NCBI RefSeq assembly: GCF_000021945.1
Contig: NC_011831.1
Location: 3,981,353 to 4,045,352, forward strand
Origin: Chloroflexus aggregans DSM 9485
GTDB taxonomy: Bacteria; Chloroflexota; Chloroflexia; Chloroflexales; Chloroflexaceae
Reading direction: 5' to 3'
Length of the DNA: 64,000 nucleotides
The notes under the pieces: generated by a model
What the model saw: the letters and a program-made list of their open reading frames with translations, nothing else
The model's database searches: none
Told to the model about the DNA's origin: nothing
Shown here: piece after piece, positions 39,914 through 52,773 of the stretch
Position numbering within the stretch: position 1 is the first letter of the stretch
Layout: every line of letters starts with the position of its first letter
Translations under genes and position numbers: made by a program

Positions 39914-41407
39914 CTACAACTGCTCTATTCGTTCTAACACCTCTTCTGCCTGCGCCGCAATTGCTTCCCGCTCAGCGGCGCTAAGCCGGCTTAGCCCCAA
40001 CACCGCCGGGCCAAGACGAGGGTTAGCGCGCAGACGCTCTTCGTGGTTGATAAGAAAGTTCCAGTAGAGGGTGTTAAATGGGCAAGCACGTGGCCCGACC
40101 CGAGCCTTTCGATCGTAGAAACAACCTTTGCAGTAGTCGCTCATCTTATCGATGTAAGCGGCGCTGGCAATGTATGGCTTGGTCGCCGTGCGTCCCCCGT
40201 CGGCGTTTAACCCCATCCCGATCACATTCGGCGTGACTACCCACTCATACGCATCGACATAACATTCGAGAAACCAGTCGTTCACCGCTTGAGGCTGTAC
40301 CCCGGCCAGCATAGCAAAATTGCACAGCACCATCAGGCGCTCGATATGGTGGCAATAACCATTCTGCAACACTCGTTGAATCACGCAGTGCAAACAGCGC
40401 ATACGAGTCTGACCCGTCCAGTACCATGCCGGTAACGGTCGTTCGGCCTGCCACGCATTGGCCTGCAAGAGGTCGGGCATTAGTTCCCAGTAGCGGTAAT
40501 AGATATATTCGCGCCAGCCGATAATCTGGCGTACAAAGCCTTCGACCGAGGACAACGGTGCGTGGCCGCGCTCGTAGGCGTTCACCGCAGCTTGCGCCGT
40601 TTCCAGCGGATCGAGCAAGCCGATGTTGAGCAGCGGTGAGAGGCGGGAATGGAAGAGCAGCTCGTGCTCGGCGCTCATCGCGTCTTCAAACGGGCCGAAG
40701 TCAGGTAAACGGTGCGTGATAAAATCATCGAGTGCGGTGAGGGCTTGGGCTCGCGTAACCGGCAAGTCGAACTCCTCGACACTCCCGATGGCGTGAGGAC
40801 AGGCAACGGCGAGGTCGGCAATCGTCTGCCGGGTAATTGTGTCGGGCGGGAAGCGCAACGGCGGCGGTACCGGTCTTCCATCGTACCGACGACGATTCTC
40901 GCGGTCAAAATTCCACACACCACCGGTAGGTTGACCGTCTGGCTCAATCAAGAGGCCGGTCTGCCGGCGCATCATGCGGTAAAACGGTTCCATCAACGCC
41001 GGTGAGCGGGGCGGAGGGAAGCGTTCGACGAGGAAGAGAGTATTAGGCAGGATCGTCACCGGAATACCGAGTTCGGCTGTGAGACGGTGTTGGAATTGGC
41101 GGGTGGCATATTCGGCGGCGGCGAGGCAGTACAAGTGCTGTACCCCAAACGTATTGACATGATCACGTAAGCCGCTCAGAAAATCGGGTGCTACACGGAG
41201 ATCGACGTCGTAGCCGGCTGCACGTAGTTCAGCAGCGTAATGGCGCATGGCGCTGATAATCAGCACCAGCTTGTGCCGGTGGTACGGGCGTTGATTAAGG
41301 CGAGCCAGCGATTCGATCAGCACTACGCGGCGGTTGGGGGCCAAACCGGGATGGGTCGGGCTGAGTTGGTCGCCGAGGATCCAGACCGATTCAGAAAGCG
41401 TGGTCAT
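39914..41407 (-). CDS. Fe-S bacterial cryptochrome/photolyase (PhrB type)
   Basis: 497 residues, start ATG 41407. The N-terminal Rossmann antenna domain is 'SVWILGDQLSPTHPGL'. FAD-domain motifs are 'EGFVRQIIGWREYIYYRYWE' and 'NVIGMGLNADGGRTATKPYI'. Cys338, Cys426, Cys429 and Cys442 keep exactly the spacing (88, 3, 13) of the four [4Fe-4S] ligands of Agrobacterium PhrB, a (6-4) photolyase. A light-driven DNA repair role is therefore likely, though some relatives are photoreceptors. Upstream lies a 36-bp tandem array that occupies the promoter region. Confidence 0.88.
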   Translation of the reverse strand: MTTLSESVWILGDQLSPTHPGLAPNRRVVLIESLARLNQRPYHRHKLVLIISAMRHYAAELRAAGYDVDLRVAPDFLSGLRDHVNTFGVQHLYCLAAAEYATRQFQHRLTAELGIPVTILPNTLFLVERFPPPRSPALMEPFYRMMRRQTGLLIEPDGQPTGGVWNFDRENRRRYDGRPVPPPLRFPPDTITRQTIADLAVACPHAIGSVEEFDLPVTRAQALTALDDFITHRLPDFGPFEDAMSAEHELLFHSRLSPLLNIGLLDPLETAQAAVNAYERGHAPLSSVEGFVRQIIGWREYIYYRYWELMPDLLQANAWQAERPLPAWYWTGQTRMRCLHCVIQRVLQNGYCHHIERLMVLCNFAMLAGVQPQAVNDWFLECYVDAYEWVVTPNVIGMGLNADGGRTATKPYIASAAYIDKMSDYCKGCFYDRKARVGPRACPFNTLYWNFLINHEERLRANPRLGPAVLGLSRLSAAEREAIAAQAEEVLERIEQL

Positions 41408-41444
41408 AAGCGATCGGTTGAGAAGGTGTCATCAGGACGCAGAG

Positions 41445-41980
41445 TAGCGCCGGACGGCTGTCCGGTTCGCCAAGGCGCGGTAGCGCCGGACGGCTGTCCG
41501 GTTCGCCAAGGCGCGGTAGCGCCGGACGGCTGTCCGGTTCGCCAAGGCGCGGTAGCGCCGGACGGCTGTCCGGTTCGCCAAGGCGCGATAGCGCCGGACG
41601 GCTGTCCGGTTCGCCAAGGCGCGGTAGCGCCAGACGGCTGTCCGGTTCGCCAAGGCGCGGTAGCGCCGGACGGCTGTCCGGTTCGCCAAGGCGCGGTAGC
41701 GCCGGACGGCTGTCCGGTTCGCCAAGGCGGGTAGCGCCGGACGGCTGTCCGGTTCGCCAAGGCGGGTAGCGCCGGACGGCTGTCCGGTTCGCCAAGGCGC
41801 GGTAGCGCCGGACGGCTGTCCGGTTCGCCAAGGCGCGGTAGCGCCGGACGGCTGTCCGGTTCGCCAAGGCGCGGTAGCGCCGGACGGCTGTCCGGTTCGC
41901 CAAGGCGCGGTAGCGCCGGACGGCTGTCCGGTTCGCCAAGGCGCGGTAGCGCCGGACGGCTGTCCGGTTCGCCAAGGCGC
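41445..41980. repeat. 36-bp tandem repeat, 15 copies
   Basis: The unit contains CCGGAC/GTCCGG and GGCGC/GCGCC inverted arms and the TTCGCCAAGGCG motif. Thirteen junctions are exactly 36 bp and two units (near 41730 and 41766) lost one base. There are no unique spacers, so it is not CRISPR. All frames stay open on both strands (12-residue repeats such as ANRTAVRRYRAL), which makes long ORFs here meaningless. It fills the interval between the J-domain gene and the photolyase start. Confidence 0.95.
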
Positions 41981-42048
41981 AAAGGAACCCAATGGTTGGA
42001 TCATAAGCCTCGGCGTCTTCTGCATGCTCGGTGGTAAGAAGATATGCA

Positions 42049-42835: not shown

Positions 42836-42959
42836 CTGTGAAAAGTATAGCAAGCTTCGCAAGGGATGTCTATCCGCCTTAAGGCTGATCTTATTGGGGT
42901 CGCACCTTTTTTCAAAGACATAGCCCTTCAAGTAGACTGGCTGACCGGCATCTAACGAG

Positions 42960-44728
42960 TGAGGTATGGGCACGGCATGGCGTGCCCCGACGACCATTCG
43001 TTTGGGCAACCCGACGGGTCGCCCCGACGCGAACCGGCGTGCCGTGGTGATGGTTGGGGTATGGCCGGTGGGGGTGCGGCACGTAGGGGCGACCCGACGG
43101 GTCGCCCTTACACGATGGGCGACGCACCGCGTCGCCCCTACCCGATGGGCAACCCGACGTAATGGGCGACGCACCGCGTTGCCCCGACGCGAACCGGCGT
43201 GCCGTGGTGATGGTTGGGGTACGGTATGTGGGGGTGCGGCATGTAGGGGCGACCCGACGGGTCGCCCTTACACGATGGGCGACGCACCGCGTCGCCCCTA
43301 CCCGATGGGCAACCCGACGTAATGGGCGACGCACCGCGTTGCCCCGACGCGAACCGGCGTGCCGTGGTGATGGTTGGGGTATGGCCGGTGGGGGTGCGGC
43401 ACGTAGGGGCGACCCGTCGGGTCGCCCTTACACGATGGGCGACGCACCGCGTCGCCCCTACCCGATGGGCAACCCGACGTAATGGGCGACGCACCGCGTT
43501 GCCCCGCGACGCGAACCGGCGTGCCGTGGTGATGGTTGGGGTATGGCCGGTGGGGGTGCGGCACGTAGGGGCGACCCGTCGGGTCGCCCTTACACGATGG
43601 GCAACCCGACCCGATGGGGACGCACGCAATGGGCGATGTACCGCAATGGGCAACGCACCGCAATGGGCAACGCACCACGTCGCCCCGACGCAAACCGGCG
43701 TGCCGTGGTGATGGTTGGGGTATGGCCGGTGGGGGTGCGGCACGTAGGGGCGACCCGACGGGTCGCCCTTACACGATGGGCGACGCACCGCGTCGCCCCA
43801 ACCCGATGGGCAACCCGACCCGATGGGCAACGCACCACGTCGCCCCGACGCGAACCGGCGTGCCGTGGTGATGGTTGCGGTACGGTATGTGGGGGTGCGG
43901 CATGTAGGGGCGACCCGGTGGGTCGCCCCAACCCGATGGGCAACGCACCGCGTCGCCCCAACCCGATGGGCAACCCGACCCGATGGGCAACGCACCACGT
44001 CGCCCCGACGCAAACCGGCGTGCCGTGGTGATGGTTGGGGTACGGTATGTGGGGGTGCGGCACGTAGGGGCGACCCGTCGGGTCGCCCTTACACGATGGG
44101 CAACGCACCACGTCGCCCCAACCCGATGGGCAACCCGACCCGATGGGCAACGCACCACGTCGCCCCGACGCGAACCGGCGTGCCGTGGTGATGGTTGCGG
44201 TACGGTATGTGGGGTGCGGCATGTAGGGGCGACCCGTCGGGTCGCCCTTACACGATGGGCGACGCACCGCGATTGGGCGACGCACCGGGTCGCCCCGACG
44301 CGAACCGGCGTGCCGTGGTGATGGTTGGGGTACGGCCGGTGGGGTGCGGCACGTAGGGGCGACCCGGTGGGTCGCCCCAACCCGATGGGCGACGCACCGC
44401 GATTGGGCAACGCACCGGGTCGCCCCGACGCGAACCGGCGTGCCGTGGTGATGGTTGGGGTACGGTATGTGGGGGTGCGGCACGTAGGGGCGACCCGTCG
44501 GGTCGCCCTTACACGATGGGCAACGCACCACGTCGCCCCGACGCAAACCGGCGTGCCGTGGTGATGGTTGCGGTACGGTATGTGGGGGTGCGGCACGTAG
44601 GGGCGACCCGTCGGGTCGCCCTTACACGATGGGCAACGCACCGCGTTGCCCCGACGCGATGGGCAACCCAACCCGATGGGCGACGCACCACGTCGCCCCG
44701 ACGCGAACCGGCACGACGTGCCCCTACC
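42960..44728. repeat. GC-rich palindrome array C (class 3), 160-180 bp units
   Basis: Tandem units start at GAACCGGCGTGCCGTGGTGA (43031, 43191, 43351, then about 43513, 43692, 43853 and on). Each contains the class 3 core palindrome (near 43089, 43249, 43409, 43569, 43749, 44070, 44229, 44490, 44607). It ends directly at the 3' end of the RAYT gene at 44724, the arrangement expected for a BIME cluster beside its transposase. No genes. Confidence 0.9.
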
Positions 44729-45317
44729 ATTCGTCAGGGTTTTCCCGGTCCAGGTGCCAGCGCAGGGGGTTGGTGGCGATGTATTCACGGATGCGTTGCA
44801 GGGCGTCTTCGGTGCGGATGATGTGTTCGTAATAATTGCGTTGCCAGACGGGTGCGCCCGGTGTGCCCCGTAGGGCATTGATCCGTTTGGTGGCGATGGA
44901 TTTGAATTGGCCGACGATGGCGCCAATGGAACCTGACGCCGGCCCCCGCGGCGGATCGGTAGGGGCGACGCGGCGCGTCGCCCCCACGCGATGGGCGACC
45001 CGCCGGGCAGGGGCGACCCGCCGGGTCGCCCCTACGTCGTCGTTGATGATCCAGATGATCCCGTGTATGTGGTTGGGCATGACCACAAATTCATCGTCGT
45101 ATAAACGCACATATGGGCGGATTTGCGCGGTCCTGAACCATTCTGCGCAAACAACCTCCCCCACCGCATTCACCTGCATCTCCCCGTCCACGACCTCGCC
45201 GAACATGTTCGTCCGGTCGTGGGTGCAGATGGTGATGAAGTATCCCCCCGCCTGCACGTAATCATATCCGGGTAACCGAATGCTGCGCCGATGGTGCTGT
45301 TCCGGGTCGTAGGTCAT
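44724..45317 (-). CDS. REP-associated tyrosine transposase (RAYT), class 3
   Basis: 197 residues: 'SIRLPGYDYVQAGGYFITIC', HUH site 'VVMPNHIHGIIWI', catalytic Tyr region 'VWQRNYYEHIIRTEDALQRI' and tail 'EYIATNPLRWHLD' are all intact, so it may be active. Between the HUH strand and the next helix it carries two class 3 palindromes in frame, encoding 'VGATRRVAP' twice. It abuts array C and starts 4 nt inside the methyltransferase stop region. It is a good candidate for having spread arrays A-C. The insert sits at the same protein position as the class 2 insert in the RAYT at 12625. Confidence 0.9.
   Translation of the reverse strand: MTYDPEQHHRRSIRLPGYDYVQAGGYFITICTHDRTNMFGEVVDGEMQVNAVGEVVCAEWFRTAQIRPYVRLYDDEFVVMPNHIHGIIWIINDDVGATRRVAPARRVAHRVGATRRVAPTDPPRGPASGSIGAIVGQFKSIATKRINALRGTPGAPVWQRNYYEHIIRTEDALQRIREYIATNPLRWHLDRENPDEW
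44959..44987. repeat. Class 3 palindrome inside RAYT, copy 1
   Basis: 29 bp, GTAGGGGCGACGC / GCGTCGCCCCCAC around three central bases, in the coding frame of the RAYT gene. Confidence 0.85.
45007..45035. repeat. Class 3 palindrome inside RAYT, copy 2
   Basis: 29 bp, GCAGGGGCGACCCG / CGGGTCGCCCCTAC around one central base, 48 bp from copy 1. Confidence 0.9.
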
Positions 45318-48300
45318 GGCTTCACACTCCGCGCTTTCTCCAGCCGCGCGCGCACCAGCGCCACCACCGCCTCATACACCGCCTCCCGCTCCCCAGCCGT
45401 CAATCCCAACACGTCAAACACCACATCGTCCAACGCGCGACGGTCGGGCGAATTCAAGTCAATCCGACCGACATGTTGAAGTGCGCTCCGGCATCTGGAA
45501 AGGGGCAAGGTGCTTGGGGCTAAAACTTCCATCGCAGCCACCTCGTATGTTTGGATCTTCATCAAGCCGCCGCCGAAGTTTGCGCGCCCTGTAATGTTGG
45601 CAAAAAGTTGGAAAACGGTGCTGTTTGCAGCAACCCCGGCCTGCCAAAAATCGTCTGCTGAAACGTGCCACTCTTGGAAATTGTCGCTCACGTAGAAGCC
45701 GTCTTCTTTCATGAAAAAGCGCATGGTTTCGTCAACAAGGTAATTGATACTCACCCTCGCTTTAGGACGGACACCCACATCCCACCACCTCTGCCTACCC
45801 CTACAACTGGGCCGCTCGTGGAAGCCCTGCGTTTCGCCCCACGTGATGTATTCGAGCGCGGCGGTGCCTTGGAGTTCGGCTTTGTCTTTGTGGCACATGA
45901 AGATTTTGTACTTGAGGTCTTCGGGCTTGATGACGATGGAGCGGCATTCGCGCGGGCTTTTGATGACCGGCTTGAGAAACTCCTCTTCGATGCCCCACTG
46001 GCGGATTTTCTCGTCGTCGAGGTAGAAGAACTCGTTCGCGCCGGTCTTGATGCCGAAGCGCACCTCGGCGATGTCGCCCAGGCGAACGAGCTTGCCTTTG
46101 CCCTTTTCTAGAATGGTGAAGAAGATGTCCGGCGCGCGCAGGTATTTGCCGCCCCATTTGTTGGCTTCGTAGCGGGCGGTTTTGATGAGCGGGCCGCGGG
46201 ATTTTGTGGGTTTGCCGGGCGTTGCTTCCTCGTCGTCCTCGCGGACGAGGCCTTCTTCAAAAAGCTGGCGTTGGGGCACGACGGTGATGCGCCAATGGTC
46301 GGTGCGCTGGCGTTCGGTGGCGGCCTCGAGCGCCTTGAACGTCTCGGCGCTGAGCACCTCCTCGAACGGCACCGTGAACATCACAAAGCGCGCGGTGTGC
46401 TCCAGCCCGTGCTCGCGGCGGTCGTCGGGCGGGGCGAGCAGCGCGATGATCGTGTTGACATCGGCCTGCGCAAACGAGCGCTTGCGCTCGTTGTCGAGGA
46501 TGAACCGAACGTGGCTGTGTTTGAGCAGAAACTCCTGCAAGTCTGCGCCGTAGCCGACGTCGAGCCACGAGTTGGACGTGATGAAGCAGAAGCTGCCCTG
46601 CGGGTTGAGCAGCGCTAGCCCGTGCAGGTAAAAGTAGATGTACAGGTCGCTTTTGCCGTCTAGCTTGCGGAAATCGGCCTTGCCGGATTTGTAGCGAAAG
46701 AACCGCGGCCACGCAGCGGCAACCGACTGCTGGAGTTTGGCTTTGTAGGCTTTTTTCTGCTCTTTCCAGCGGTCGGACGTTTCGCCGCCGAAGTCGTTCG
46801 GGTCGAGCCGGGGCGGGGCGATCATCTCCTGCCGAACGTAGGGCGGATTGCCGATCACGATGTCGAAGCCGCCCTTGTCGCCCTCAAAGATTTCCACAAA
46901 GGCGATGTCCCAGACAAAGGGGACGTGCTGCGCGCTGCGGAGCGCCGCGAGCGCGTCGGTGATGCGGGCGAGTTCGGCGTGCTTCTCCTCGCGTTCGGCG
47001 CGGAGCTGCTCGAGGCGGCGCTGGTATGCAGCGCGATCGGTGGGGGCCTCCAGGCCCGGCAGCGCGACTTGCTCGACCGGCGATTCAATCTGGTGGGTGA
47101 GCGTGGCAATGTGGGTTTGCAGCACGTGTTGTTTGTAGTCAAGGATGGCACGGAAGAGATTGACCTCTTCTTGTTTGAGGTCGGCTTCGCGCAGGTCCTT
47201 CTGGCCTTGGTAAAAGCGGAGTTTTTTGCCTTTGAGCTGGGTGATACGACCTTTGAGCTGGGCCGAGATGGCGAGATGCGCCCGGTGCAGGCCGAAGTCG
47301 ATGCCGCCGATCTCTTGCACGAGGCTATCGCCGCAGCGTATTTTGAACGAGAGATTGGGCAGCAACGGGCGGAACTTCAGTTCGGCCGGCGCCAGCTCGG
47401 TTTCGACGACCAGTTGCAGCCAGAGGCGCAATTCGGTGACGTGGACGGCCCAGTCCATCACGTCTACGCCGTACAGTTGCTCGCCGATGATGCGGCGGCG
47501 GCGTTCGTAGGGTGTTTCATCAATGCCGAGTTGGGCATTGGCGCGGGCCTGAAGGTCGTCGAGCACGAGCAGCATCCCGACGAGAAATGCACCGGAGCCA
47601 CAGGCGGGGTCGCAGATGGTGGTTTCGCGCAGCATACGGTTGAGGTCGGGCCACAGGTTCTGGTCGGCGATCGCAGCATCGGCAGCCTCTTTCTCGGCAG
47701 GTTCGTAGGCAAAGATGGCGTCGTAGAGGAGCGGTTTTTTGTCTGTGCCGAGCCGATTGGTCAGCGCGTCCACGAGCGCGAGGCGGCACATCAGGTCAAT
47801 CTCCACCCGCGAGGTGTAGAAAATGCCGGCCGAGCCGCGACGGTCGTCATCGGTGATCCCCTCGAACGTGATGTTGACCAGCGACTCGTAGACCTTGCCG
47901 ATCATTTCGGGGTCAACGGCAACCTCGATATCGAGCGGCGTCGATTCGGCGATGGTGAAGTTGTAGCGTTCGAGAAAGCCGGGTCTGCTGCCGTCGAACT
48001 CGTCGAAGAGCGTGGCAAAGAACGCATCGGGTACCGTCACACTGTGGGCATCGTCGAGCCGGTTGCGGGTGAAGAGTCCGCCGTTGAGATATGGCGCAAG
48101 CTGGAGCGCCTCGTAAATCGCAGAGGGAAACTGCCGATGGCCGCCGTGGAAGGTGTTGTTGAACGCCTCGAAGAACAGTACCGAGAGCCAGCGCTCGAAG
48201 AAGCTGTTGTTGGGCTGGTTGGAAGCCTTGTATGCGCGCCAGAACTCGGCGATGAATCGTGGGTTGCCGCCGAGCCAGCCTTTGCGCTGGATGAAGTAGA

Positions 48301-48946
48301 GGAACATCAGCCGGTTGAGCAGTTGCAGCGCGTAATCGTGCGCCCAGACCTTATCGCCGGTGGCGTCGAAGAGCAGCCGTTGCAGGGTGGCAAAGACCTG
48401 TTTGTAATCGGCAAAGAACCGCCGGGTGACCGCTTCGACATCAAATGCGCGGTTGAGTTTGTCGGTGAGGGTGGTGATGGGAGGCTCGCCATGGGCCAGC
48501 TCGTCGAGGGTGAACGCCAGTTCGGCGAGACGTTCAACGGTGGTACGCGCCGGCGATCCGACGTCGTAGGGGAGCGTGCGCAGTTCAATTTTGCCGTCGG
48601 ATCGCTCACGCGCCCATGTGAAGGCAAGCTGGCGGGCGTCTTGGGTGACGTAGCAGAGCACATGCTCGGCATGCACCGGCTTGAGTGCGCGCTGGACGGC
48701 GCGGCGGGCGGTGATGCCCGGCAGCCGATCCCCCGGCCAGATGACGCGATAGACCGGCAGGCCCGAAAGCCGGGCAACGGGCTGGAGCGTGATGCTCTGG
48801 TTGATGGGCGCGCCGAAATCGAGCGTGCGCGGCAGCAAGCCGCGCGGCGCGCTCCAGTTGAGCGTTTGGCAGAAGAGTTCGCCGAGTTTCTGCGGTGAGC
48901 CGGCGCTATTCAAGCACGATTGAATGCGTTGAAGTAGATTGTTCAT
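45314..48946 (-). CDS. Large Eco57I-type adenine-specific DNA methyltransferase
   Basis: 1210 residues. A long N-terminal helical region ('LLNRLMFLYFIQRKGWLGGN') precedes SAM motif I 'ICDPACGSGAFLVGMLLVLD' at about 447 and 'LYGVDVMDWAVHVTELRLWL'. The catalytic N6-adenine motif 'DIVIGNPPYVRQEM' is at about 699. The last 350 residues ('KLVRLGDIAEVRFGIKTGAN') look like a target-recognition domain. A 50-residue coiled coil (about 620-680) separates motif I from NPPY. Its start overlaps the stop of the PLD-helicase gene (ATGA), so both are one operon. Protects host DNA while the partner attacks unmodified DNA, by inference. Confidence 0.87.
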   Translation of the reverse strand: MNNLLQRIQSCLNSAGSPQKLGELFCQTLNWSAPRGLLPRTLDFGAPINQSITLQPVARLSGLPVYRVIWPGDRLPGITARRAVQRALKPVHAEHVLCYVTQDARQLAFTWARERSDGKIELRTLPYDVGSPARTTVERLAELAFTLDELAHGEPPITTLTDKLNRAFDVEAVTRRFFADYKQVFATLQRLLFDATGDKVWAHDYALQLLNRLMFLYFIQRKGWLGGNPRFIAEFWRAYKASNQPNNSFFERWLSVLFFEAFNNTFHGGHRQFPSAIYEALQLAPYLNGGLFTRNRLDDAHSVTVPDAFFATLFDEFDGSRPGFLERYNFTIAESTPLDIEVAVDPEMIGKVYESLVNITFEGITDDDRRGSAGIFYTSRVEIDLMCRLALVDALTNRLGTDKKPLLYDAIFAYEPAEKEAADAAIADQNLWPDLNRMLRETTICDPACGSGAFLVGMLLVLDDLQARANAQLGIDETPYERRRRIIGEQLYGVDVMDWAVHVTELRLWLQLVVETELAPAELKFRPLLPNLSFKIRCGDSLVQEIGGIDFGLHRAHLAISAQLKGRITQLKGKKLRFYQGQKDLREADLKQEEVNLFRAILDYKQHVLQTHIATLTHQIESPVEQVALPGLEAPTDRAAYQRRLEQLRAEREEKHAELARITDALAALRSAQHVPFVWDIAFVEIFEGDKGGFDIVIGNPPYVRQEMIAPPRLDPNDFGGETSDRWKEQKKAYKAKLQQSVAAAWPRFFRYKSGKADFRKLDGKSDLYIYFYLHGLALLNPQGSFCFITSNSWLDVGYGADLQEFLLKHSHVRFILDNERKRSFAQADVNTIIALLAPPDDRREHGLEHTARFVMFTVPFEEVLSAETFKALEAATERQRTDHWRITVVPQRQLFEEGLVREDDEEATPGKPTKSRGPLIKTARYEANKWGGKYLRAPDIFFTILEKGKGKLVRLGDIAEVRFGIKTGANEFFYLDDEKIRQWGIEEEFLKPVIKSPRECRSIVIKPEDLKYKIFMCHKDKAELQGTAALEYITWGETQGFHERPSCRGRQRWWDVGVRPKARVSINYLVDETMRFFMKEDGFYVSDNFQEWHVSADDFWQAGVAANSTVFQLFANITGRANFGGGLMKIQTYEVAAMEVLAPSTLPLSRCRSALQHVGRIDLNSPDRRALDDVVFDVLGLTAGEREAVYEAVVALVRARLEKARSVKP

Positions 48947-51900
48947 CGTTGATCGTCTCCCGTGTTCACCGGTATCGGTGCAGTGAGGGCAAGTCCCATC
49001 GAGCAGATGATGCGCGGTTCAGCCGGCGCCTGAGCGTCCTCGGTGGTCACGTCGCAGAGGTTCTCATTCGCTGCATACTGCACCACAAGGTCAAGCAGTG
49101 CTTCATCGGTAATGCCGAGCCGCATCTGCCGGCTGATGGCATCTTGCGCAGCACGGCGGAGTGGGTAGCGCCAGAGCATATCGAGCACACGCTCAAGCTG
49201 TTCAAGCGTTTCGTTGATAAAGAGCGTGGGCCTTGCCTGAAGCTGCTCACGATAGCCTTTGAGCCGGTCGTAGAGCTTGCGGCGGACGCTGCGGAGCGAG
49301 CCGAGCTGACCGCCGGGGTCGACCTGCTCTTTCATGACATGGTTGAAGCAGTGGGTAACGAGTTCGTGATGGTTTTCTGCGCGCGGCAGTGGTGGCGTGT
49401 CCGGCGCGCATGCAAGCGTCCGAAAGATAGCCGAGACCGATTGCGAGACGAAACGGCCGTGCTCATCCACGCGCACCAGCGCGTCGGTGCCATCGGGGTA
49501 GCGAACATAGGTGATGACACCCGGCGGCGACTCCCGTGCGTCGGCGGTTTCAGCGATTGCCCGTGTTGCCGAGACGATGGGCGGCAGCGCCACGGCCTTC
49601 CGTTGATCGTCGGCAGCGGCACTCTTCCAGACCTGAAGCGCAAGGCTCGCCAGATCAATATCGTCGTCAGATGGGTCATCGTCGAGCGAGCCGGTTTTTT
49701 CGGTGTAGAGATCGCGCAGGGTATTGGCAGCCGCTTCGCCAAAAAAGGTTTCATCGGTGCCGATAACTTCCTGGTTCTGCTGGAGCCGATGGAAGAGGCG
49801 CTGGCGCAGCCGGATGATGCGCTCGACGCCTTCGGCGGGGAGGAAGGAGTACACGAGGATCGTGTCGTGTTGCTGACCGATACGATCCACGCGGCCGGCA
49901 CGCTGGATAAGGCGAATGATCGCCCATGGCAGGTCATAGTTCACGATGATGTGGGCGTCTTGCAGGTTCTGACCCTCGGCGAGCACATCGGTGGCAATCA
50001 AGATGCGCAGCTCCTGCTCGCCCGGAGGCAAGCCGCCGTTCGAGCGCGGGCTAAACCGTCGTGCCAGTGTCACCGGATCGTCGGTCTGGTTGGTGACGAT
50101 CGCGAGATCGGTAATGTTCTGCCTGGTAAGCTCGCGTTGCAAGTACTGCGCGGTATCGGCGAATTGCGTGAAGACGAGCACTTTATCGCGGGCGTGCTGT
50201 GTGGTCAGCAACTTGGTGAGTTCTTCAAGCTTCGTATCGCGGTTGGGGTTCCACTCACCGATGCGTGCGAGGATGCCCAGCAGCGCAGTGGCGTCGGCTT
50301 CGAGCGCCTGCCGGAGTTCAGGGCGGAAGAACTTCGCAGCGAGCCAGTCGAAACGGTCGCGAAATTGCCGGGTGTATGTCTCGTACACAGCGGCAGCGCG
50401 CGCTTTGAATGCTGCCAGCGTGGGCGGTGCGTTGCCCGCTGCTGCGCTCTCGGCCGCGCTTTCGTCCGGTGGAGGCACCTCATCGGTCGCGATAGCGTCA
50501 TCGTCGGTATCGCTGACGGCTGTGTCGAGCATTGCGGCATCTTGTGTGCCGATGGGCACCGGCAGACCGTGTTCGAGCGCATGCAACGTGACCAGATTGC
50601 GCAGGATGTGGCGGCGCACGGAGAGCAGAAAACTGTGGCCACTCGATTCAAGCCGTTTGAACAGGTTGGTCCGGCAAAAGCCGATCAGGCGACGACCGGC
50701 ACGGTTGAGGTTATCAAGGATGCGCTTCTCATCGCTTTTGGCCATCCGTTCGGCACGAGCGACGAGGTACTGCGCCAGCCCGTAGCGGGGGAGGATGAGC
50801 TGCTCGATGACCTCCACGACATCATCGCGAAACAGGCGCGCGTATTGATCGGTCGGATCGTTTTCGGTAATCGTAAACGATAGCCGCTTCGGCTCACGGA
50901 GCGGAAAGTATGCGGGCTTGCCGTTGAGCATGACGTAGTGACGCTGCTTTTCCTTGTCGAACGTGGCGTAGTGATCAATGATGAACCGGCGCGTGCGCCG
51001 CACCAGAAAGAGGCGCATCAGGTCACGCCAATCTTCCGGGTGGGAACTTTGCTCGAACGCGCGCAACGAACACGGGGACGTTTGGAAGCGTGCGATGAAA
51101 TCCTGCTCATGCTTCCCACTCGCTGCCCAATCGTGGAAAAAGCGTTCGGGTCGCACGTGGAGGTCTTGGTTTTCGTCCAGAAACAGGCGTAGTTGGTTGC
51201 CAAGATCGCTAAACTGCTTGTTATACGGGGTCGCGGTGAGCAGCAGCACACGCGGTTCGTTGCGCTCGATGTAGTCCCGCAGGGCGCGGTAGCGCTTGCT
51301 TTCGCGATTGCGCAGGTTGTGGCTTTCGTCAAGGATCAGCAGCCGGTAGCGCGGTGCATCGTCTCTCCCCAAGGTTTCGATGACTTTGCCGACCGAGAGC
51401 ACGCGACCGTTGATCTCATACGTTTGCAGGTACCGTTCCCACATCGGTGCCAGTTTGGGCGGACAAACAACCAGCGTGTTGCTCTGATCATCTTCCTGAA
51501 AGATGCGGGCAATGGCCGTCGCCATCAACGTCTTGCCCAGCCCCACCACATCGCCAAGCAATACCCCACCCCGGCGGTAGAGATAATGGGCCGCCAGGGA
51601 AACGGCCCGCTCCTGAAAATCGAGCAACGGTGTGCCTTTGTCATGAAATATCCGCGGGAGGCGGAACTCGCGTTCGCCTTCGCGAGCTTCTTCGGAGAGG
51701 TGATACGCCACTTTGAGATAGACGAGATACGGGCGAACCAACTCGGTACGCGCCCAACTCGTTTCAATGAGTTCAGCGAGCGTATCGGTAAGGTCAATCG
51801 CCAGCTCATCGCGCCACCGCTCCTCAAACCAAACTTGCAATTTCGTGGCGGCATCTTGTTCGACGACATCCACATTCAACTCGCCCTGCTGCGAAAGGCC

Positions 51901-52404
51901 GGCGAGCGTGAGGTTGCTGCTGCCGACAAAGCCGATGAGGGGCGTGACTGGATCGTTGCGCCGCACGAGGTACAGCTTGGCATGTAACGGGTAGCGGAGA
52001 AACGCTTTGAGGAAGACCTTGCGCGCGCGAAGCTGGGCGGCCAGTCGGCGGAGCGTGCGTTCGGCGTGCGCCGACGGTACCCCAAACTCCAGTTGCTGCT
52101 TGAAGCGCTCGGTGAACTGCCGTTTCAGCCGGGCAAGCGTGATACCATCAACCACGTGCTCGTGCTCACGCCTGAGATAGGCAAGGGCTTTCATCTCCTC
52201 TTCCGGCGGACGGTACATCCCAACCAGCACGCGACAGGCGGCATCTTCCTTCCCACCCGGCAAACGCTCGACGAGATCGGCTACGTGATCCCAGCCGCGC
52301 AGGTTGAGATAGCCAACGCAGAATGCGAACGATTGGGCACCGCCGCTGAATGCCTTCAAACCGTCCGCTAGGGTTAGGTGGGTATTGTCGAAAATGCGAG
52401 GCAT
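48943..52404 (-). CDS. PLD-nuclease / SNF2-type helicase fusion
   Basis: 1153 residues from ATG 52404 ('MPRIFDNTHLTLADGLKAF'; an upstream TTG at 52479 is less likely). About 1-220 is a phospholipase D-like nuclease with one HxK..GSSN motif ('HAKLYLVRRNDPVTPLIGFV' then 'GSSNLTLAGL'). From about 280 there is a SNF2 motor: Walker A 'LLGDVVGLGKTLMATAIA', DESH box 'LLILDESHNLRNRESKR', 'LLLTATPYNKQFSDLGNQ'. Helicase C has 'KVLVFTQFADTAQYLQREL' and 'IQRAGRVDRIGQQ'. ATP-driven translocation with DNA cutting is inferred. The operon with a methyltransferase resembles a restriction or phage-exclusion module. Frame and motifs are intact. Confidence 0.87.
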   Translation of the reverse strand: MPRIFDNTHLTLADGLKAFSGGAQSFAFCVGYLNLRGWDHVADLVERLPGGKEDAACRVLVGMYRPPEEEMKALAYLRREHEHVVDGITLARLKRQFTERFKQQLEFGVPSAHAERTLRRLAAQLRARKVFLKAFLRYPLHAKLYLVRRNDPVTPLIGFVGSSNLTLAGLSQQGELNVDVVEQDAATKLQVWFEERWRDELAIDLTDTLAELIETSWARTELVRPYLVYLKVAYHLSEEAREGEREFRLPRIFHDKGTPLLDFQERAVSLAAHYLYRRGGVLLGDVVGLGKTLMATAIARIFQEDDQSNTLVVCPPKLAPMWERYLQTYEINGRVLSVGKVIETLGRDDAPRYRLLILDESHNLRNRESKRYRALRDYIERNEPRVLLLTATPYNKQFSDLGNQLRLFLDENQDLHVRPERFFHDWAASGKHEQDFIARFQTSPCSLRAFEQSSHPEDWRDLMRLFLVRRTRRFIIDHYATFDKEKQRHYVMLNGKPAYFPLREPKRLSFTITENDPTDQYARLFRDDVVEVIEQLILPRYGLAQYLVARAERMAKSDEKRILDNLNRAGRRLIGFCRTNLFKRLESSGHSFLLSVRRHILRNLVTLHALEHGLPVPIGTQDAAMLDTAVSDTDDDAIATDEVPPPDESAAESAAAGNAPPTLAAFKARAAAVYETYTRQFRDRFDWLAAKFFRPELRQALEADATALLGILARIGEWNPNRDTKLEELTKLLTTQHARDKVLVFTQFADTAQYLQRELTRQNITDLAIVTNQTDDPVTLARRFSPRSNGGLPPGEQELRILIATDVLAEGQNLQDAHIIVNYDLPWAIIRLIQRAGRVDRIGQQHDTILVYSFLPAEGVERIIRLRQRLFHRLQQNQEVIGTDETFFGEAAANTLRDLYTEKTGSLDDDPSDDDIDLASLALQVWKSAAADDQRKAVALPPIVSATRAIAETADARESPPGVITYVRYPDGTDALVRVDEHGRFVSQSVSAIFRTLACAPDTPPLPRAENHHELVTHCFNHVMKEQVDPGGQLGSLRSVRRKLYDRLKGYREQLQARPTLFINETLEQLERVLDMLWRYPLRRAAQDAISRQMRLGITDEALLDLVVQYAANENLCDVTTEDAQAPAEPRIICSMGLALTAPIPVNTGDDQR

Positions 52405-52773
52405 AGATGTGGTTTCCGTGGATTTAATGAACGGAGGGATGCTACATACCTTGCTGAAGGACGCTCTCACGCCCGGCAAAGCGTTACGTTGGCGCCGACG
52501 TCATCGTGCAGATGCTACCAGAAGCATCGTGGTTTCCCGTCTAACGCTCGAATCACACCACCATGAGGTTTCTCATCACCGGGCATGGCTGTACCATAGA
52601 ATAGCCTCTATTTTAGCATAGATTTTATGGCTGTATTATCATCAAATCGGGCACATCCGGCGTCGGCCCAAGACCCACCCGGACAACCGTTCGCCATCGT
52701 ACATGGTGTATCATCGCACTGCTATGCTACAATTGGCCGCCGATACGGTTCTTGTCGATGTGAGGAGATGGCT

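Follow-up and report, generated by a model that had tools for sequence, protein, structure and literature searches.

A recurring two-gene module of PLD nuclease–SNF2 motor and adenine methyltransferase in Chloroflexus aggregans: a candidate two-subunit restriction–modification system

Analysis of a 64,000-nucleotide stretch of the Chloroflexus aggregans DSM 9485 genome (hereafter the window; G000:C1:3981353–4045352, in a genome of a single contig of 4,684,931 bases) revealed a gene pair that recurs in Chloroflexota and other phyla without any known larger system. Gene 1 (48943..52404, ATG at 52404) encodes a PLD nuclease–SNF2 motor of 1153 residues, assigned from its open reading frame (ORF), Pfam and fold. 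Gene 2 (45314..48946, ATG at 48946) encodes an Eco57I/BrxX-like N6-adenine methyltransferase (MT) of 1210 residues with a target recognition domain (TRD) of its own. Both genes, and the features within them given below, lie on the minus strand, and start and stop overlap in the sequence ATGA (48943..48946). ORFs and Pfam confirmed the two genes, overlap included, where a first-pass annotation made from the sequence had placed them, and the two frames are not chance readings because they are conserved across phyla. By analogy with known enzymes, we consider it fairly probable that the pair is a two-subunit ATP-dependent restriction–modification (RM) system, type I-like in its working, in which an added N-terminal domain of the MT docks the motor. 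If so, it would rank among ATP-dependent restriction systems as a very small one whose modification subunit is separate; it is present in many phyla, and no name for it was found in the literature searched.

Nuclease and motor reside on one chain and modification on the other, as had been proposed. Gene 1 matched PLDc_2 (34.5 bits, cut-off 27) and RE_NgoFVII (24.6 bits, cut-off 23.8) and, on the same chain, SNF2-rel_dom and Helicase_C above their Pfam cut-offs. The HxK of the PLD nuclease (H141 and K143; 51976..51984) is invariant in 20 aligned homologues and is followed by GSSN at residues 161–164. The SNF2 motor core spans residues 234–885 (49750..51705), based on superposition of an AlphaFold2 (AF2) model (m9bbe8cb9af92; pLDDT 72 and pTM 0.52 for gene 1) on the Ino80, ISW1 and Sulfolobus SWI2/SNF2 cores at Z ~18. 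Within it the Walker A motif GDVVGLGKT (residues 284–292; 51529..51555) is invariant in 20/20 homologues, as are D359, E360 and S361 of the DESH box (residues 359–362; 51319..51330). Among 99 members of the family, at loci in which at least three genomes occur twice, the patterns were retained in 95 (HxK), 97 (GSSN), 95 (GDxxGxGKT), 99 (DES(H/Q)) and 93 (QR.GR.DRIGQ).

Gene 2 matched Eco57I at 105 bits (cut-off 25.3) and MmeI_Mtase above cut-off. Motif I, DPACGSGAF (residues 446–454; 47585..47611), takes the form DPxxGSGAF in 68/74 MTs, and the catalytic NPPY (residues 700–703; 46838..46849) the form NPP(Y/W/F) in 73/74. An AF2 model of residues 1–1200 (pLDDT 84, pTM 0.82) superposed with its residues 172-1195 on BrxX residues 1-918 (Z 25.7, root mean square deviation (rmsd) 4.8, 668 residues aligned) and with residues 170-945 on residues 1-486 of the M.EcoKI subunit HsdM (Z 22.4, rmsd 6.2, 410 aligned). 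Because these superpositions begin at MT residues 170–172 with the first residues of BrxX and HsdM, the MT has approximately 170 additional N-terminal residues ahead of its HsdM/BrxX-like core. CamA superposed from residue ~330–370 to 1182 (Z 27.1, rmsd 6.0, 545 aligned). The C-terminal part of the MT thus occupies the place where CamA and M.TaqI hold their recognition domain, which bears out the earlier suggestion of an in-built TRD. The target recognition region is placed at approximately residues 950–1160 (45467..46099), based on a sub-threshold M_Eco57I_C match at 955–1067, on superposition on CamA and M.TaqI that extends to 1146–1182, and on the lack of correlation with gene 1 described below.

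The added N-terminal domain (N-domain; residues 1–~175, 48422..48946) is proposed to be a docking plug for the motor, based on the start of the BrxX/HsdM core at residues 170–172, on a fall in identity after residue 180 in the locus L035 and on co-variation with gene 1. Type IIG enzymes carry an active endonuclease N-terminal to the MT on the same chain; in a 17-row alignment of the N-domain no conserved acidic/lysine triad of the PD-(D/E)xK type was seen, and only F25 was invariant. Fold searches were dominated by the motor and MT cores, and their coverage of the PLD domain, as of MT residues 1–169, was slight.

The survey of the pair that the first-pass annotation had called for was performed in 301 Chloroflexota genomes and in a species-genome collection, and an MT-type gene adjoined the motor nearly always. 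The motor or its sister (E ≤ 1e-40) was found in 50/301 Chloroflexota genomes; at the same threshold the genus's six other genomes gave no match. Of 20 further Chloroflexota places fetched, 19 offered enough sequence around the motor, and in 19/19 of these the MT adjoins the motor or lies 1–2 small frames away. Scanning the species-genome collection with the motor alignment yielded at least 577 relatives, and the titles of the best 80 loci include Acidobacteria, Latescibacteria, Proteobacteria, Bacteroidota, Cyanobacteria, Verrucomicrobia, Spirochaetaceae and others. A same-strand MT-family frame within ~2 kb of the motor was present in 72 of these 80 loci, and tblastn added three more MT partners (L108, L118 and L140); in the remaining five the motor ends within 94 bases of a contig end. 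An MT-type partner was present in 74/75 testable loci, several of these MTs being cut by contig ends (L118 shows the N-domain part only); the exception, L171, has a partner that is not an MT. ORFs were called with a longest-ORF script, which missed the pair in L108, where the MT was found by tblastn.

A sister group of seven loci (L085, L086, L089–L093) carries similar motors beside MT frames of 1486–1862 residues. The description of the window MT as giant therefore holds in a relative sense only, by the script-called lengths of these frames. The one sister-group MT frame scanned was of the Eco57I type. Three loci of the group lie beside a large frame of one cluster, which in L086 is a DUF2298 membrane protein. 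On plasmids, 24 records matched at 1e-60, and no match was obtained in the phage collection at E 1e-30. Plasmid pSYSX of Synechocystis PCC 6803 (L228, NC_005232.1) carries a family member in which both genes match the family models nearly full length; the NCBI labels are 'helicase-related protein' for the gene 1 relative and 'DNA methyltransferase' for its partner. A VapC-type toxin gene lies between the two. This strain thus offers a laboratory model for the family. Five Synechocystis MTs or methylation activities are listed in the parts available of three papers (PMC6560206, PMC7296061, PMC6604393), from which it could not be told whether the pSYSX MT is among them. No account of the pair as a stand-alone system was found in the open-licence literature, REBASE being outside the search.

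The N-domain shares its ancestry with the motor to a greater extent than the remainder of the MT does. Co-variation was calculated from 128 motor rows, of which 88 had a full-length MT; 86 remained without copies and 79 without the seven giant-MT loci. N-domain and body were split by hidden Markov models (a motif-based split would lose 28/86 rows), and body refers to the first 420 residues after the split, or to the whole body in the control on MT-first loci below. Over the 79 pairs the correlation with the motor was 0.78 for the N-domain and 0.65 for the body. The partial correlation of motor and N-domain, given the body, was 0.61 (n=79), 0.63 in the main MT class (n=65) and 0.85 in the window's class together with L035 (n=13), and that of motor and body, given the N-domain, was -0.07 in the main class (n=65). 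In the main class, the correlation with the motor, followed along the MT over 63 motor-first loci, was 0.55–0.76 up to residue 188, 0.25–0.55 up to residue 691 and 0.00–0.10 for residues 692–1207; the C-terminal half does not co-vary with the motor, and the MT tail, at 38% identity, likewise gave r 0.00.

Two loci bear on this individually. L035 holds the motor closest to that of the window (68–69% identity) and an N-domain at 68%, with an MT body at 33%; the MT identity is 76–80% over residues 61–180 and 13–45% per 60 residues thereafter. Judged from sequence, this reads as a clear swap of the MT body for that of another MT class. L144 has the MT body closest to that of the window (80-85%; 63–98% over residues 181–960, where a contig end truncates L144), an N-domain at 43% (31–51%) and a motor at 50–52%, and appears to be a second, less sharp swap. 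On the motor tree the MT classes MT0–MT3 are accounted for by just 3 changes, as few as four states allow, and therefore replacement of a whole MT class is rare. The common event would accordingly be recombination within an MT class, mostly in the C-terminal half, and class replacement as in L035 would be the rare one. An N-domain model built from pair loci matched at E<1e-25 in 32/301 genomes, all 32 of which are among the 50/301 with the motor (hypergeometric p ~1e-30, relatedness ignored); with weaker matches included, 36/38 genomes carry the motor. The motor lies within 9 kb of 28/38 strong N-domain places.

The mechanism proposed for the pair is drawn by analogy with SauUSI (PMC7913695) and CglI (PMC5737866), which couple a nuclease to an ATP-driven motor. 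The nucleases of both are of the PLD type. The MT would recognise its site via the C-terminal TRD and methylate adenine in self DNA, and its added N-terminal domain (residues 1-~175) would bind and thereby dock the PLD-SNF2 subunit. At an unmodified site the MT may load or activate the motor. The SNF2 motor would then translocate double-stranded DNA, which paired PLD domains would cut, and the predicted outcome is restriction of phage. A change of specificity would come about by exchange of the C-terminal half of the MT within a class or, rarely, of the whole MT body, behind a retained docking domain.

Several observations weigh against this reading. Motor and MT distances also correlate overall (Mantel r 0.75, 86 pairs), the partial correlation of motor and body given the N-domain was 0.29 in the 79 pairs (a value reached in 1/500 shuffles) and 0.27 in the set of 13, and the few class changes on the motor tree point the same way. 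The correlation with the motor drops stepwise over MT residues 189-691, identity to L144 rises gradually over residues ~120-360, and the TRD segments are near saturation at ~20% identity. Segment-wise correlation singled out no motor segment as docking site. Of the strong N-domain places, 10/38 lack a motor within 9 kb, nine of them on a motor-free contig and one at a distance of 3.3 Mb. In L171, from the cyanobacterium Pseudanabaena, the motor is followed at a distance of two bases by a frame that joins an N-domain to TPR repeats (L171:9592-12177); tblastn found no MT of the window family downstream, where an HsdR-like gene, recognised by eye, lies on the other strand. This frame may be a broken gene.

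A less likely, though substantial, explanation of the docking step alone is plain gene linkage, with crossovers inside the MT gene dragging the motor-side end along. The motor lies upstream, by the 5' end of the MT, in 69/79 loci, an order that alone might suffice to tie the N-terminus of the MT to the motor; the correlation declines along the gene, and both L035 and L144 are motor-first. In the 10 MT-first loci, however, the N-terminus is the far end, and its correlation with the motor persists (r 0.79, partial 0.64, 0/1000 shuffles). Body segments correlate in these loci too, one on the TRD side at r 0.67, and the control is supportive of a link between N-domain and motor without being decisive. 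The L035 break after residue 180, moreover, meets the start of the HsdM/BrxX core at 170-172, and L171 retains the N-domain without an MT of the window family, neither of which favours plain linkage.

An extension of docking, which we put forward tentatively and regard as doubtful, is that the N-domain is a dedicated plug and that the module is an effector with interchangeable sensors behind it, as opposed to one fixed restriction enzyme. What is exchanged might then be mostly the recognition half within a class, an MT body of another class in L035 and, in L171, a TPR-repeat protein without methyltransferase. Relatives with a different MT body and the same plug may indicate where the subunits meet, and moving the plug might allow retargeting.

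For the pair as a whole, BREX-like exclusion is an unlikely alternative to two-subunit restriction. In such a system the BrxX-like MT would mark self DNA and the motor would block or displace unmarked phage DNA, cleavage being secondary or absent. The superposition of the MT core on BrxX/PglX agrees with this. The HxK and GSSN of the PLD domain, however, are kept in 95 and 97 of the 99 family members, as for a nuclease in use, and the genome's one PglZ gene lies more than 2 Mb from the pair. A helicase match near this PglZ gene is BREX-like and likewise far from the pair (G000:C1:1387465-1390852).

It is also improbable that the operon combines two separate functions, a solitary MT and a PLD-motor protein acting alone on modified DNA in the manner of SauUSI. 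SauUSI is reported to be an endonuclease that requires ATP and has a TRD for a methylated target; its ATPase is activated by the target, and translocation and a dimer joined through the nuclease domains are also described (PMC7913695). Pfam identified no TRD in the motor chain, the fold search having barely covered its parts outside the motor; the ancestry of the motor tracks the MT N-domain, and pairing of motor and MT is near constant, all in favour of a joint function. SauUSI and CglI resemble the pair in coupling a nuclease to an ATP-driven motor (PMC7913695, PMC5737866, in the parts available), and differ from it in that SauUSI acts on a methylated target and CglI has its nuclease and its motor on separate proteins.

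Compared with established systems, the pair shares the general feature of ATP-dependent RM that nuclease, motor and MT are encoded together, and its layout was found to be unlike those of type I, type ISP, DISARM and BREX, as the first-pass annotation had argued. Like type I RM (HsdR/M/S) it has a separate motor-nuclease subunit and an MT core that superposes on HsdM. Unlike type I, its TRD is fused to the MT, PLD and SNF2 replace the HsdR nuclease-motor, and no HsdS adjoins: Pfam gave no match of this kind in the neighbouring window ORFs that were scanned, a TRD-like region being found in the MT chain instead. Type ISP enzymes (LlaBIII, LlaGI) combine nuclease, SF2 motor, MT and TRD. The pair has the same components, and MT residues 136-1181 superposed on LlaBIII residues 659-1577 (Z 23.9, rmsd 6.3, 558 aligned); the pair differs in having two chains rather than one, and a PLD nuclease. 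With BREX it shares a BrxX-like MT core, PglZ being absent from the locus. DISARM class 1 and ARMADA, as far as the source material covers them, resemble the pair in a SNF2/RapA-like helicase and a PglX/DrmMI-like adenine MT, and differ from it in that the window pair has no DrmA/DrmB or YprA-type helicase beside it and has PLD fused to the motor instead of a separate DrmC. PADLOC and Pfam scans of window ORFs (eight other ORFs for Drm) revealed neither Drm or YprA nor PglZ or BrxC genes beside the pair.

According to the portion available of PMC12839542, type 2 BREX-related systems consist of a DUF499 ATPase, an N6-MT, an HKD–Swi2/Snf2 helicase and DUF3780. The resemblance to the pair lies in the N-terminal HKD nuclease fused to a Swi2/Snf2 helicase, together with an N6-MT; the window pair lacks the DUF499 ATPase. 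DUF499 was not found in the C. aggregans genome, the control matching in Thermotoga maritima, and DUF3780 gave no match there with a control that matched nowhere either. Of the 301 genomes, 64 carry DUF499 and 12 of these share the motor, compared to 10.6 expected; wherever both are on the same contig they lie ~85 kb or more apart. In 11/16 DUF499 loci a helicase matches the motor model, with scores of just 60–112 bits, and in a FastTree phylogeny, to which a long-branch warning applies, these 11 helicases form one fully supported group separate from the motor family. The MT of DUF499 loci belongs to another family (COG1743, in the part of PMC7641849 available), and an MT of the window type was found in 0/16 of these loci (E 1e-5). 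Membership of the pair in a DUF499/Hma/BREX-related system was therefore rejected, as DUF499 was not found in the genome, the two are unlinked in 301 genomes and the helicases group separately. Although the PADLOC scan showed a distant similarity of the motor to DrmD and HmaA, type 2 BREX-related helicases also carry an N-terminal HKD nuclease (PMC12839542, in part), and an MZB/DUF1998-type gene and a PglZ gene exist elsewhere in the genome, it is very improbable that the pair is a decayed or accessory fragment of a DISARM class 1, ARMADA or DUF499 (Hma/BREX-related type 2) system, given the DUF499 results and the 0.87 Mb that separate the single MZB/DUF1998-type match from the pair. A helicase match near MZB/DUF1998, far from the pair, was noted at G000:C1:3161220-3163745.

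The top PADLOC match of the window motor, and of 5/5 relatives scanned, was C3a139 (HKD+Snf2), a single-protein candidate model unlike the pair; no paper naming it was found in the open-licence literature. The novelty of the pair is qualified to the extent that its motor component already has this model. Module, TRD and layout thus stood as first annotated; absent from that account were the N-domain of the MT and the fact that it is inherited together with the motor, as well as how widely the pair is distributed and the accessory genes found in a minority of loci. The comparison would also help to sort systems of SNF2 helicase and PglX-like MT (DISARM, ARMADA, BREX, DUF499) into core and added parts.

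The pair is an acquired unit, as evident from its patchy presence and an empty site in four genomes of the genus. The flanking photolyase-related and GH31 genes are 1.4–2.9 kb apart in these four genomes as opposed to 11.2 kb in the window, and are far apart in two others. Besides the pair, the segment without aligned counterpart (42890..52720) includes a RAYT-like gene and a repeat array: blastn blocks stop at window position 42889 and start again at 52721 in three of the genomes and at 52761 in the fourth, with 0.6–0.9 kb of unaligned sequence between the two blocks in the relatives.

Neighbouring genes are variable. The commonest third gene is DprA/Smf-like (25/99 clustered loci, e.g. L105:14714-15349 and L101:14728-15258), with PF02481 found on both members scanned singly and on 5/125 neighbours; it is absent from the window, and a conserved third gene was rejected at this frequency. 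AAA-type ATPases (7) and recombinase-like genes (7) were next commonest in the 99 loci. Among same-strand neighbours, of which 125 of 199 were scanned with PADLOC and Pfam, GajA/OLD-type ATPases (6–7) and GmrSD (4) occurred, and no single system recurred among the 25 commonest families listed (of 216 and 141). Directly 3' of the MT in L109 (L109:14860-16673), L116, L117 and L155 lies an AAA_21-type ATPase with a partner gene (DUF4276 in L109), possibly a second defence module.

In the window, the RAYT-like (Y1_Tnp) gene (44724–45317, minus strand) starts inside the MT stop with an ATGA overlap and matches Y1_Tnp just below the Pfam cut-off. It was not called by the ORF script and hence fell outside the neighbour clustering. 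Elsewhere in the genome it has three more long matches, of which one is in two pieces with a stop. A role as third subunit is not favoured, considering the sub-cut-off match, the genomic copies, the adjacent repeat array and a match in only 1/99 other loci. That sole match is in L035, where a 55%-identical gene follows ~220 bases after the MT, and the RAYT-like gene may travel with the pair in the window/L035 lineage. In L081, a distant locus, a Y1_Tnp gene likewise separates MT and motor. The RAYT-like frame contains repeat-derived VGATRRVAPT segments, and a REP-like inverted repeat array at window 43080–44430, partly at 160-bp spacing (GTAGGGGCGACCCG... motifs) and the source of many spurious ORFs, is perhaps tied to it. 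A further repetitive stretch at window 41390–42000 consists of tandem LGEPDSRPALPR-type units coded in several frames.

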